Shown here piece after piece: positions 19,093 to 21,201 of a stretch of DNA of 64,000 nucleotides; the stretch's first letter is position 1, and each line of letters opens with the position of its first letter. Below the pieces are notes generated by a model. It was given only the letters and a program-made list of their open reading frames with translations, had not been told where the DNA came from and did not search any database. Source of the DNA: Lentilactobacillus laojiaonis (GTDB lineage Bacteria > Bacillota > Bacilli > Lactobacillales > Lactobacillaceae). Location: assembly GCF_020616595.1 (NCBI RefSeq), contig NZ_CP085278.1:806001-870000 (forward strand), read 5' to 3'. Position numbers and translations under genes: made by a program.

Positions 19093-19115
19093 TGATCTAC
19101 CGTTAATAAAATCTT

Positions 19116-19153
19116 AAAAAAGCCCCCAACTTTAATTAGTTGGAGGCTTTTTT
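19116..19153 (+). terminator. antiporter gene terminator
   Basis: A 16-bp stem with one mismatch and a 6-base loop ends in a T run, 24 bases after the stop codon. Confidence 0.9.
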
Positions 19154-19193
19154 ATTGGAAAAATATTAAATTTAATTTTATAAAAAATTTGCC

Positions 19194-19223
19194 TTGCATG
19201 CTATATATAGTATGCAATAAAAT
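19194..19223 (+). promoter_or_regulatory. promoter overlapped by a 24-bp palindrome
   Basis: TTGCAT (19194-19199) and TAAAAT (19218-19223) are spaced by 18 bases. The palindrome 19194-19217 (TTGCATG, CTATATATAG, TATGCAA; one mismatched pair) covers the -35 box and the spacer, as a repressor operator would. It would drive the two small peptide genes that follow. Confidence 0.5.
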
Positions 19224-19234
19224 TATAGTCAAGC

Positions 19235-19288
19235 GAGGGAGTAACTACCTGAACGAAGCTTAGCAAGATAGGTGCATTCACACTCCTC
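19235..19288 (+). promoter_or_regulatory. structured 5' leader of the small peptide operon
   Basis: GAGGGAGT (19235-19242) can pair with ACTCCTC (19282-19288), and ACCT with AGGT inside it, giving a long stem-loop just upstream of the first peptide's ribosome binding site. Stable 5' structures are common in toxin mRNAs of type I systems. The assignment is inference. Confidence 0.4.
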
Positions 19289-19319
19289 AATCATTCTAGA
19301 CCAAAAAGAGGTGGTAAAC

Positions 19320-19448
19320 GTGACTATACTAGGAGAGGTTTTGCAGATTGTGAAGTATATCTTCATGATATTCCTATTATCTAGGGCCGTGATTAATTTC
19401 GCTAAAGCCTATCAAATAATAAAAAAAGCTAACCAAAAAGGAGTTTGA
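19320..19448 (+). CDS. small hydrophobic peptide 1 (42 residues), possible holin-like toxin
   Basis: The GTG start is preceded by GAGGTGG at good spacing. The peptide begins MTILGEVLQIVKYIFMIFLL and has one membrane segment (about residues 7-22) followed by a basic tail (KAYQIIKKANQKG). Length, the N-terminal pattern and the single helix resemble the short holin-like toxin peptides annotated in Firmicutes. Similarity is judged by eye only. The stop codon is 2 bases from the ATG of a second tiny peptide, and their reading is likely coupled. Confidence 0.55.
   Translation: MTILGEVLQIVKYIFMIFLLSRAVINFAKAYQIIKKANQKGV
19411..19441 (+). repeat. direct repeat copy A
   Basis: About 31 bases with the core AAAGCTAACCAA. 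They cover the end of peptide gene 1 and run into the AAGGAG ribosome binding site of peptide gene 2. Copy B is at 19570-19600 with about three differences. Confidence 0.85.
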
Positions 19449-19450
19449 CA

Positions 19451-19543
19451 ATGAAAAAAGAAACCGTACAAAAATTAACTATGTTGTTTTCGATTGTTGC
19501 ATTAATATTCTCGTTTTTATCATTTATTAAGGTGTGGTTTTAA
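19451..19543 (+). CDS. small hydrophobic peptide 2 (30 residues), possible type I toxin
   Basis: The ATG is preceded by AAAAAGGAG at 8-base spacing. The peptide has a charged start (MKKETVQKL) followed by one membrane helix (TMLFSIVALIFSFLSFI) and ends KVWF. This is the general plan of Fst-like and holin-like toxins of type I toxin-antitoxin systems. Its ribosome binding site lies in direct repeat copy A. The complement of that repeat would be present in any minus-strand RNA made over copy B, giving a route for antisense control. Confidence 0.6.
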   Translation: MKKETVQKLTMLFSIVALIFSFLSFIKVWF

Positions 19544-19569
19544 TATCTTAAATATTATGCTTTCTGAAA

Positions 19570-19600
19570 ATCAGATAATAAAAAAGCTAACCAATAAAGG
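19570..19600 (+). repeat. direct repeat copy B
   Basis: The second copy of the approximately 31-base repeat lies downstream of peptide gene 2. Its right half forms one arm of the minus-strand hairpin at 19585-19606. Confidence 0.85.
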
Positions 19601-19606
19601 TTAGCT
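19580..19606 (-). terminator. minus-strand terminator inside repeat copy B
   Basis: The AGCTAACC/GGTTAGCT stem with a 6-base loop is followed by TTTTTT only on the minus strand. It ends either an antisense RNA to the peptide operon or read-through from tRNA-Gln, or both. Confidence 0.7.
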
Positions 19607-19704
19607 AAACAGTAAAACAGTGCAATTTTATGAACACTGTACTTTTGTTAAACGTTGATATAACATCATTTAACTACTAATTAAAATGTATGAAATTCGT
19701 CTAT

Positions 19705-19776
19705 TGGGCATACTGGGCTCGAACCAGTAAATTACGGATTCAGAGTCCGCTGCCTTACCAATTTGGCGAATGCCCA
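19705..19776 (-). tRNA. tRNA-Gln (anticodon CUG)
   Basis: A full cloverleaf can be drawn on the minus strand: acceptor TGGGCAT with ATGCCCA, a D arm, an anticodon loop CTCTGAA giving CUG (reads CAG), and a TTCGAGC T loop. U1-A72 is typical of glutamine tRNAs. CCA is not encoded. Confidence 0.92.
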
Positions 19777-19792
19777 AAAATATTACATATTA

Positions 19793-19864
19793 ATGATATA
19801 TAGGGATAACAAATATGTCAATAATATTTTATAAATTGACAAACATATTTATATTTGATAAAGT
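19793..19864. promoter_or_regulatory. divergent promoters of the two tRNA genes
   Basis: Minus strand: TTGACA (19821-19816), 17 bases, TATCAT (19798-19793), for tRNA-Gln. Plus strand: TTGACA (19836-19841), 17 bases, TAAAGT (19859-19864), for tRNA-Glu. The two perfect -35 boxes lie back to back, 14 bases apart. Confidence 0.8.
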
Positions 19865-19879
19865 AATATTACAGTTTAT

Positions 19880-19953
19880 TGCCCGCTGGTCAAACTGGTT
19901 TAAGACGTCGCCCTCTCAAGGCGGAGTTACGGGTTCGAGCCCCGTGCGGGTGA
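19880..19953 (+). tRNA. tRNA-Glu (anticodon CUC)
   Basis: The cloverleaf has acceptor TGCCCGC with GCGGGTG, a D arm GTC/GAC, the anticodon loop CTCTCAA giving CUC (reads GAG), and T loop TTCGAGC. The body closely resembles bacterial glutamate tRNAs. The first two acceptor pairs are U-G and G-U wobbles, which is unusual. CCA is not encoded. Confidence 0.88.
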
Positions 19954-19968
19954 TTTAATACGATAAAT

Positions 19969-19999
19969 AAAACCGATAAGCAGATTGCTTATCGGTTTT
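19969..19999. terminator. bidirectional terminator, tRNA-Glu and phosphoesterase gene
   Basis: A 13-bp perfect stem (AAAACCGATAAGC) with a 5-base loop and A/T runs on both sides lies between convergent genes. Confidence 0.9.
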
Positions 20000-20007
20000 T
20001 TAATGTA

Positions 20008-21201
20008 TTAATAATTAAACAAGCGATCGCTACCCGCTCCATATCTAATCATTGTCATGGTTCGCTTACTATGATCAATAGTTATAACATCCCAAGCGTC
20101 TTCATTTTCTTGACCAATCTGTCGTCCATGAACTGCACCACGATCATATGCGCTACATAAACTTTCTATATATAACACATCATTAAATTTAACATCACGA
20201 TCAACATGGGCATGCCCGGACATTACTGCAATAACTCTACCACTTGGCTTATCAGAAAAGTCTACACTTACTTTTACTTTATAATTAGGATCATTTTCTG
20301 GTAGTGGAGCAATAGGATTGCCCCTTACGTCTTTTTTATTAGGTCCAAATCCACTGCCGGTATAACTAGTTGCTTGTTGGAAAGCTTCAATAATTCCAAC
20401 GATCACATTTCCGGCATGTTGAAAGTTAGCATGATTTTCGTCTTTCCAAATTCCTCTTAGTGAACTATGCGATTCAATCAAGACTTGTTTATCATTTGGA
20501 ACACTTTGTAAAGTATTGATAAACCAATCAACTTGTGCTTGGCGAAATTCTGAACGACCATGTGAAATATAAACTGATGTTAATCCTCTAGATATATATG
20601 GAACATCATATGAATTTAAAACAATTACTACTAAATTATCATTAGCTACATAATATCCATAAGGATTAGTAGGATCATTAGGATTGGTTTTTAGCCATTG
20701 ATTATATTGAGATAGCCTTATAGGATAAGCATCCTGATCATTAATTATTGCAGCAAATGAGCGATTATCCTGATCTCTAGAATAACCAGAATTATCATCA
20801 TGATTTCCTTGGGTAACAATAAAAGGCACCTTAGTTAATTGATGGGCTTCAATTCCCGCTTGAACATCTACTATCGAATCAGCTTTAGGCTTATTACCAT
20901 CCTCTAAATCCCCATTATTTAAAATAAAATCCAATCCATAAGTGTCAGCATAGTATGAAATTGCCTGAACATGTCGTAAGGCTCTTTTAGTTGCTTGAGT
21001 ACCATTTAAATCAATATGCGTATCCGTAATCATACCAAAGGTAGTAGTATTACTATTTTGATATTGTTTAACCTTATCATTGACGGATTGCATCCAATTT
21101 TTTTCATCATTCGAAGGATTAAAAGGATCTAGTCCATTCCCTAATTCTTTATTTTTTAAATAATTAGTGTGTAATTTTTGCAAACCAGATAAAAATCCCA
21201 T
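20008..21201 (-). CDS. calcineurin-like metallophosphoesterase
   Basis: A 397-residue dimetal phosphoesterase. The metal-binding motifs appear in order: DTHID (D60, H62), NNGDLEDG, TQGNHDD, an isolated His in IESHSS, and SGHAHVD. There is no signal peptide or membrane helix, so it is likely cytosolic. Family substrates vary from cyclic nucleotides to phosphodiesters, and none can be assigned here. A GAAGGCG site precedes the ATG. It is transcribed alone between two terminators. Confidence 0.88.
   Translation of the reverse strand: MGFLSGLQKLHTNYLKNKELGNGLDPFNPSNDEKNWMQSVNDKVKQYQNSNTTTFGMITDTHIDLNGTQATKRALRHVQAISYYADTYGLDFILNNGDLEDGNKPKADSIVDVQAGIEAHQLTKVPFIVTQGNHDDNSGYSRDQDNRSFAAIINDQDAYPIRLSQYNQWLKTNPNDPTNPYGYYVANDNLVVIVLNSYDVPYISRGLTSVYISHGRSEFRQAQVDWFINTLQSVPNDKQVLIESHSSLRGIWKDENHANFQHAGNVIVGIIEAFQQATSYTGSGFGPNKKDVRGNPIAPLPENDPNYKVKVSVDFSDKPSGRVIAVMSGHAHVDRDVKFNDVLYIESLCSAYDRGAVHGRQIGQENEDAWDVITIDHSKRTMTMIRYGAGSDRLFNY

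Follow-up and report, generated by a model that had tools for sequence, protein, structure and literature searches.

The 64,000-nt stretch of the Lentilactobacillus laojiaonis genome analysed here (NZ_CP085278.1, positions 806,001 to 870,000; hereafter the window, from whose first base coordinates are counted) contains two short peptide open reading frames (ORFs), peptide 1 and peptide 2, a convergent tRNA-Gln gene, and between them the second of two direct repeats, copies A (19411-19441) and B (19570-19600). We propose that this locus is probably a rearranged member of a Lactobacillaceae-wide type I toxin-antitoxin module resembling the Enterococcus par locus, in which the antisense RNA has become fused to a tRNA transcript. 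Specifically, in relatives of the locus an antisense RNA of ~100 nt would start at a promoter located 70-92 nt beyond the stop codon of the putative toxin, peptide 1, and end at a terminator within the toxin's own last codons. In the window, the peptide-2 ORF would have come to sit between the toxin and the antisense terminator, the dedicated antisense promoter would be gone, and the native terminator of tRNA-Gln would have decayed. With the promoter missing and that terminator decayed, tRNA-Gln transcripts should run on to copy B, leaving a trailer of ~125 nt if this read-through is the source of the antisense RNA.

Peptide 1 (19320-19448, plus strand; 42 amino acids, toxin-like, with the C-terminus FAKAYQIIKKANQKGV) is, judged by its sequence, a member of an unannotated family of short membrane-like peptides that share the C-terminus A.AY.IIKKAN. 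At E ≤ 0.05, a profile built from eight relatives of peptide 1 matched 87 genomes out of 397 sampled from the Lactobacillaceae, among them the window's own, and reached into 22 of 40 genera, with some of the weak matches sitting in long frames or containing stops; 55 genomes matched at E ≤ 1e-5 (counted from the match table), which places the family in 14 to 22% of the sample. Among 398 genomes drawn from the class there were two matches, the window's own genome and one other member of the Lactobacillaceae. Thirteen Lactobacillus plasmid records also carry the family, with no gene annotated under the match in the PLSDB gene table, which is incomplete; where the annotated plasmid context of two matches was followed, again no gene lay beneath the match. 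A DNA search of 60 relatives matched seven, with one long match (80% identity over 19216-19441) in a Lentilactobacillus senioris locus, L002, the nearest relative. Peptide 1 has no Pfam or NCBIfam family at E ≤ 1, found nothing useful in Pfam, NCBIfam, PADLOC, PHROGs or the PDB, and has no phage match. When 20 aligned family peptides (one entered twice) were searched, the best E-values were 0.025 in Pfam (a transporter), 0.083 in NCBIfam and 0.063 in PHROGs, with no toxin model among them. Motif words of the peptides appeared in none of the papers in the library searched, and literature searches for type I systems returned work on Lpt, Fst and Bacillus, and nothing tied to the peptide-1 family.

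In L002 the end of peptide 1 reads AATAAAAAAAGCTAACCTAAAAGGTTAGCCC, and its last codons and stop form a complete minus-strand terminator. A motif scan of the window and 82 loci yielded 52 non-identical sites, the window included. Under a strict script, 46 of the 51 non-window sites carry a minus-strand terminator over the ORF end, and the other five show the same hairpin by eye, with one mismatch or a GC-poor stem; the window alone among the 52 lacks a terminator at this position. Because the motif used in the scan spans the codons of one hairpin arm, the sampling partly favours this arm, but neither the opposite arm nor the T run. The hairpin alignment took in 36 of 53 rows, including both window copies, which are out of register, and omitting 17 with other loop lengths; 97% of its cells pair, and covariation is 0.212 vs 0.162, a level reached in none of 500 shuffles, with the caveat that nine of the ten double changes fall in a single pair. 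Both L002 and L047, a locus from another genus, have a separate plus-strand terminator, these being the two loci scanned for one.

The predicted antisense promoter shows a similarly fixed placement: in 46 of the 51 sites the best minus-strand candidate has its −10 end 70-92 nt beyond the toxin stop. In the same search the best promoter of the window is that of tRNA-Gln, 192 nt away, and a shuffle control found no minus-strand promoter above noise in 19607-19702. The initial annotation had interpreted copies A and B by the logic of the par direct repeats. That logic does appear in the family as a whole, at a different place: over 38 sites taken together, a direct repeat links the ribosome-binding region of peptide 1 to the stretch 8-62 nt past its stop, with a mean score of 10.24 against a permuted mean of 7.92 (maximum 8.89 of 1000 permutations), and 19 of the 38 reach p ≤ 0.05 singly; 13 entries without a recognisable ribosome-binding site were excluded. 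A conserved DRa/DRb pair is not supported for copies A and B: the pair was seen in the window only, and relatives carry one terminator, at the ORF end. Pairing between the 5′ and 3′ parts of the toxin mRNA gave less uniform results. With whole-region duplexes no clear signal emerged: none of 52 loci beat all swapped partners, 11 had no more than 5 of 102 swaps as good, and the window had 95 of 102. A helix score was more telling and put 15 of the 52 above every one of their 25 shuffles (mean z 1.77); for the window z was 2.0, equalled by 1 shuffle in 25, and the helix lay at an unusual location. A general test of antisense RNA against the 5′ region was passed over all 20 shuffles by 10 of 52 loci, the window among them, a signal that arises in part because tandem copies lie in the 5′ stretch.

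Within the window, the direct repeat reported in the initial annotation is real. The repeat search gave 74% ungapped identity, and in a gapped alignment 29 of 32 columns are identical, the differences being one mismatch and two single-base indels. This score was reached by none of 2000 dinucleotide shuffles of the remaining intergenic region and by none of 2052 31-mers (sampled over the window in steps of 31 bases and each compared with the 329 bases that follow it), which rules out a chance repeat. Copy A consists of the final codons of peptide 1, where relatives have their antisense terminator, and it runs, as had been described, into the AAGGAG ribosome-binding site of peptide 2 (19438-19443), overlapping it at 19438-19441, 5′ of the ATG at 19451. 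The hairpin is broken here: its right arm has given way to the beginning of the peptide-2 segment (AAAAAGG followed by AGTTTGACAATG), and the minus-strand fold of 19405-19456 reaches only −2.9 kcal/mol. Copy B holds a duplicated peptide-1 C-terminal block, reading by eye QIIKKLTNKG-stop in one frame, and an intact terminator at 19585-19606 (AGCTAACC-loop-GGTTAGCT with a T tail). The terminator scan places its stem at 19606-19585 on the minus strand, with 8 pairs, a loop of 6 and a TTTTTATTAT tail, and lists none on the plus strand at copy B, in agreement with the earlier claim that it works on the minus strand only; the fold of 19570-19615 is −12.0 kcal/mol. The likeness between the copies extends 15 nt past the hairpin, over bases that are protein-coding in L002. 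Homology with ~50 relative sites supports copy B as the terminator of an antisense RNA. The possibility that copy B opens a small regulator gene (MLSENQIIKKLTNKG) was also considered and rejected, its DNA being by eye far closer to copy A and the family terminator.

We suggest that copy A is the coding remainder of the toxin, its hairpin broken at the peptide-2 junction, and that copy B would be the intact terminator with a scrap of the toxin C-terminus. It is plausible that copy B began as a second module that was cut down to its end, because several loci (L008, L026, L027 and L082) hold two to four sites.

The tRNA-Gln (CTG) gene lies at 19703-19777 on the minus strand, behind a TTGACA-17-TATCAT promoter (19793-19821) that is the top minus-strand promoter in 19607-19830 (score 10.3, the next 7.7). 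In other genomes of the genus, 22 of 23 follow this tRNA with a hairpin and T run within ~75 nt (−14.5 to −27.6 kcal/mol), and in the exception tRNA-Glu lies immediately downstream. The window has no terminator of that kind, the first one downstream in the scan being copy B. In its place, 19641-19702 is a probable decayed relic of the tRNA-Gln terminator, in which no hairpin with a T run was found; the window trailer gives an ungapped, eroded match to the trailer of one of these genomes (G002; z 5.4, 0 of 300 shuffles). The initial annotation had set tRNA-Gln read-through apart, as an observation that would speak against an antisense RNA here; on the present comparison such read-through is instead the most likely source, and the minus-strand RNA would most likely be the ~125-nt trailer predicted at 19578-19702 (fold z −3.57). 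A contrasting, unfused arrangement occurs in L047, where a tRNA-Gln (TTG) gene converges on the toxin, has its own terminator, and is followed by a separate antisense promoter (by the loose score). Among the 47 loci scanned, with both strands counted, a tRNA gene is present in 8 and a tmRNA gene in one other.

Provided that the peptide mRNA extends so far, the trailer would complement its 3′ part, copy B included, perfectly; its complementarity to copy A would be partial. For an RNA that ends at copy B, the 3′-terminal 29 bases were computed to pair with copy A at −25.0 kcal/mol (60 shuffles: mean −9.0, minimum −14.2), bearing out this part of the initial annotation, over a stretch that takes in the final peptide-1 codons and the peptide-2 ribosome-binding site; against copy B itself the same RNA end gives −42.7. 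Pairing of the trailer with the 5′ region of the window is not special by energy (−33.7; shuffle mean −30.0, minimum −44.3). The putative mechanism would be pairing at the mRNA 3′ end followed by decay of the duplex, with a block on peptide 2 in addition.

The initial annotation had proposed a different source for this RNA, a short dedicated minus-strand transcript that would start at a possible TTTAAC-16-TAAAAT promoter (present at 19652-19625), stop in copy B and act in trans on the translation of peptide 2 by way of copy A, following the logic of par; from this promoter the transcript would be 40-50 nt long. The terminator and the pairing on which this proposal drew both stand, the latter far past its shuffles and over the peptide-2 ribosome-binding site; the dedicated promoter is not supported. 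It is the best candidate in 19607-19702, but its score of 7.7 was reached by 651 of 1000 shuffles (mean 7.93), its −35 box matches at 3 of 6 positions, it is absent from the 13 promoter-like sites of the window scan, and it lies away from the family position. The stronger pairing of such an RNA with copy B than with copy A also counts against it, and we consider the proposal improbable. Still less credible is that copy B is simply the native terminator of tRNA-Gln, resembling copy A by chance or convergence. Going downstream from the tRNA, the script does meet copy B as its first terminator, but the tRNA-Gln terminators of relatives are nearer and different in look, a probable relic stands between the tRNA and copy B, and the likeness that continues 15 nt past the hairpin into L002 coding sequence is matched by none of 2000 shuffles.

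A stronger competitor shares the anatomy proposed above and differs in function: the locus may be a decaying relic whose regulation has been lost, with copy B kept only as a terminator for tRNA-Gln and the trailer having no regulatory role. We regard this as a real possibility that falls somewhat short of an even chance. The missing antisense promoter and direct repeat, the hairpin broken at copy A, the lack of a plus-strand terminator in 19543-20500 by the scan and the small genome (1.24 Mb) all fit it, and in PMC8003834 a Lacticaseibacillus Lpt-like2 locus that also lacks an antitoxin promoter is interpreted as having lost its toxicity or being otherwise controlled. In the window the two peptide ORFs remain intact, as do their ribosome-binding sites and a likely promoter for the mRNA, and copies A and B have kept their similarity; all of this speaks against decay. 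The rearranged, tRNA-fused module that we prefer has several observations to contend with. At peptide 1 in the window the family direct repeat was not found (z 0.6) and 5′-3′ pairing is weak, as would equally be expected if the module as a whole were decaying. Two leaders were folded in search of the 5′ stem-loop by which Fst/Ldr mRNAs hide the ribosome-binding site: that of the window is no more stable than its shuffles (z 0.34), and that of L002 gives z −1.72. The antisense promoters of relatives beat their own shuffles by z > 1 in 40 of 51 sites on a loose score and are absent from the stricter scans made of L002 and L047, so that their constant distance from the toxin stop is the main evidence for an antisense promoter. 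The trailer comparison is uneven across the 23 genomes, with z 3.4 for G010 and 2.0 or less for the other 21 rows; the rearrangement is known from one genome, of 88.8% completeness; and the label 'toxin' for the peptide-1 family is drawn from its architecture.

On the boldest reading, a tRNA precursor might itself serve as the antitoxin, with tRNA-Gln (CTG) having lost its own terminator and taken over that of the toxin's antisense RNA, and the trailer produced with every transcript silencing two membrane peptides. We hold this to be rather unlikely; if true, it would tie release of the toxin to tRNA transcription, for example at starvation.

The two peptides would be expressed from one mRNA, with a probable promoter at 19194-19223 (TTGCAT-18-TAAAAT, read from the sequence) that overlaps a palindrome with arms at 19194-19209 and 19202-19217; L002 has TTGCAA-17-TATAAT 5′ of its module. 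Palindromes lie near the −35 and −10 boxes of the toxin promoter in the window (19194-19217), in L002 (~1484-1500) and in L028, the last two by eye, and a small XRE-like ORF was seen by eye behind the L002 module (1840-2016); control of the toxin promoter by a protein is possible. Peptide 1 has a GAGGTGG ribosome-binding site and a GTG start (19308-19322). Across the family, a ribosome-binding site and start codon are recognisable 121-145 nt 5′ of the toxin stop in 39 of 52 sites, and the frame opened at that start relative to the toxin frame varies, being 0 in five sites and otherwise 1 or 2 (e.g. L002, L027, L029, L045, L059, L076 and L081); four toxin frames contain no ATG, GTG or TTG. Toxin synthesis may depend on coupling to a leader, on frameshifting or on near-cognate starts. 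L008, L026, L027 and L082 and genomes G278 and G331 carry arrays of two to four toxin modules, not all of which point the same way. An antiporter-like gene upstream of the window locus has relatives in 24 of 24 genomes of the genus. The scan found no plus-strand terminator behind the two peptides in 19543-19879, so their mRNA could extend, antisense, across tRNA-Gln as far as tRNA-Glu. At gathering score, Rfam found only tRNA and tmRNA in the window and only one tmRNA in six relative loci; within 19100-19720 it gave 30 weak matches, all under their gathering scores.

Peptide 2 (19451-19543, plus strand) is a hydrophobic peptide of 30 amino acids. It matched eight other genomes of the 397, with one good match (L013, E 9.6e-7) and the rest at E 0.003-0.03, mostly within long frames. 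The L013 homologue, from another genus, is likewise 30 amino acids long (60% identity), has a small regulator-like ORF directly 3′, and has no peptide 1 near it in the 1 kb inspected; conversely, no peptide 2 follows peptide 1 in L002. The L013 region (1240-1830) also has upstream, by eye, a further short hydrophobic ORF and a 20-base unit repeated in tandem about three times, and it is perhaps another small membrane-peptide system. In the libraries peptide 2 gave PHROG matches at E 0.016 and 0.046 and an NCBIfam match at 0.43, and it had no plasmid or phage match.

Taken together, the family appears to be a par-like type I module with a different peptide family and a different place for its terminator, and we found it described nowhere in the libraries and literature searched. 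By comparison with Enterococcus par (Fst/RNA II) and the Fst/Ldr systems, as set out in PMC7472228, the relatives are alike in their predicted convergent mRNA and antisense promoters, in the direct repeats that the sites show as a set between ribosome-binding and antisense regions, and in signs of mRNA 5′-3′ pairing. The window differs from Fst/Ldr in lacking the convergent antisense promoter and, as far as our search found, the direct repeat at peptide 1. The bidirectional terminator shared by the two RNAs of Fst/Ldr was not encountered: the minus-strand terminator of the family lies inside the toxin ORF, where it appears to constrain the toxin's own codons, and that of copy B is listed on the minus strand only. 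Peptide 1 has no Fst signature (P/D/S/T-XXX-G), and Pfam Fst_toxin (PF13955), a short model that matches 1 of 14 control genomes, below its cut-off, had no match in the window genome.

The locus can also be compared with the 3′-overlapping type I systems of Bacillus subtilis, txpA/RatA, bsrG/SR4 and yonT-yoyJ/SR6; no library match ties the peptides to txpA, bsrG or yonT, in libraries whose content for those models was unchecked and with no direct comparison made. In yonT-yoyJ/SR6, according to PMC6562991, one RNA serves two toxin genes, with a 3′ end and a ribosome-binding site as its points of action, and the proposed window trailer would resemble SR6 in serving two peptides. The window differs from the Bacillus systems in that its sole strong minus-strand promoter belongs to a tRNA. 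Among lactobacilli, Lpt/RNAII of Lacticaseibacillus plasmids is alike in combining a short hydrophobic peptide with a convergent antisense RNA (PMC8003834), and Lpt is treated in PMC7472228 as an Fst/Ldr member with a PXXXG motif. Peptide 1 is without this motif. The relationship between trailer and target has a parallel of another kind: in Escherichia coli, the tRNA precursor trailer 3′ETS-leuZ reportedly pairs with another RNA, as a sponge for small RNAs and not as an antitoxin. The proposed window trailer would be like it in being the trailer of a tRNA transcript that pairs with another RNA, and the window, as an apparent rewiring of a par-like module, offers a test case for a tRNA trailer replacing a dedicated antitoxin RNA.
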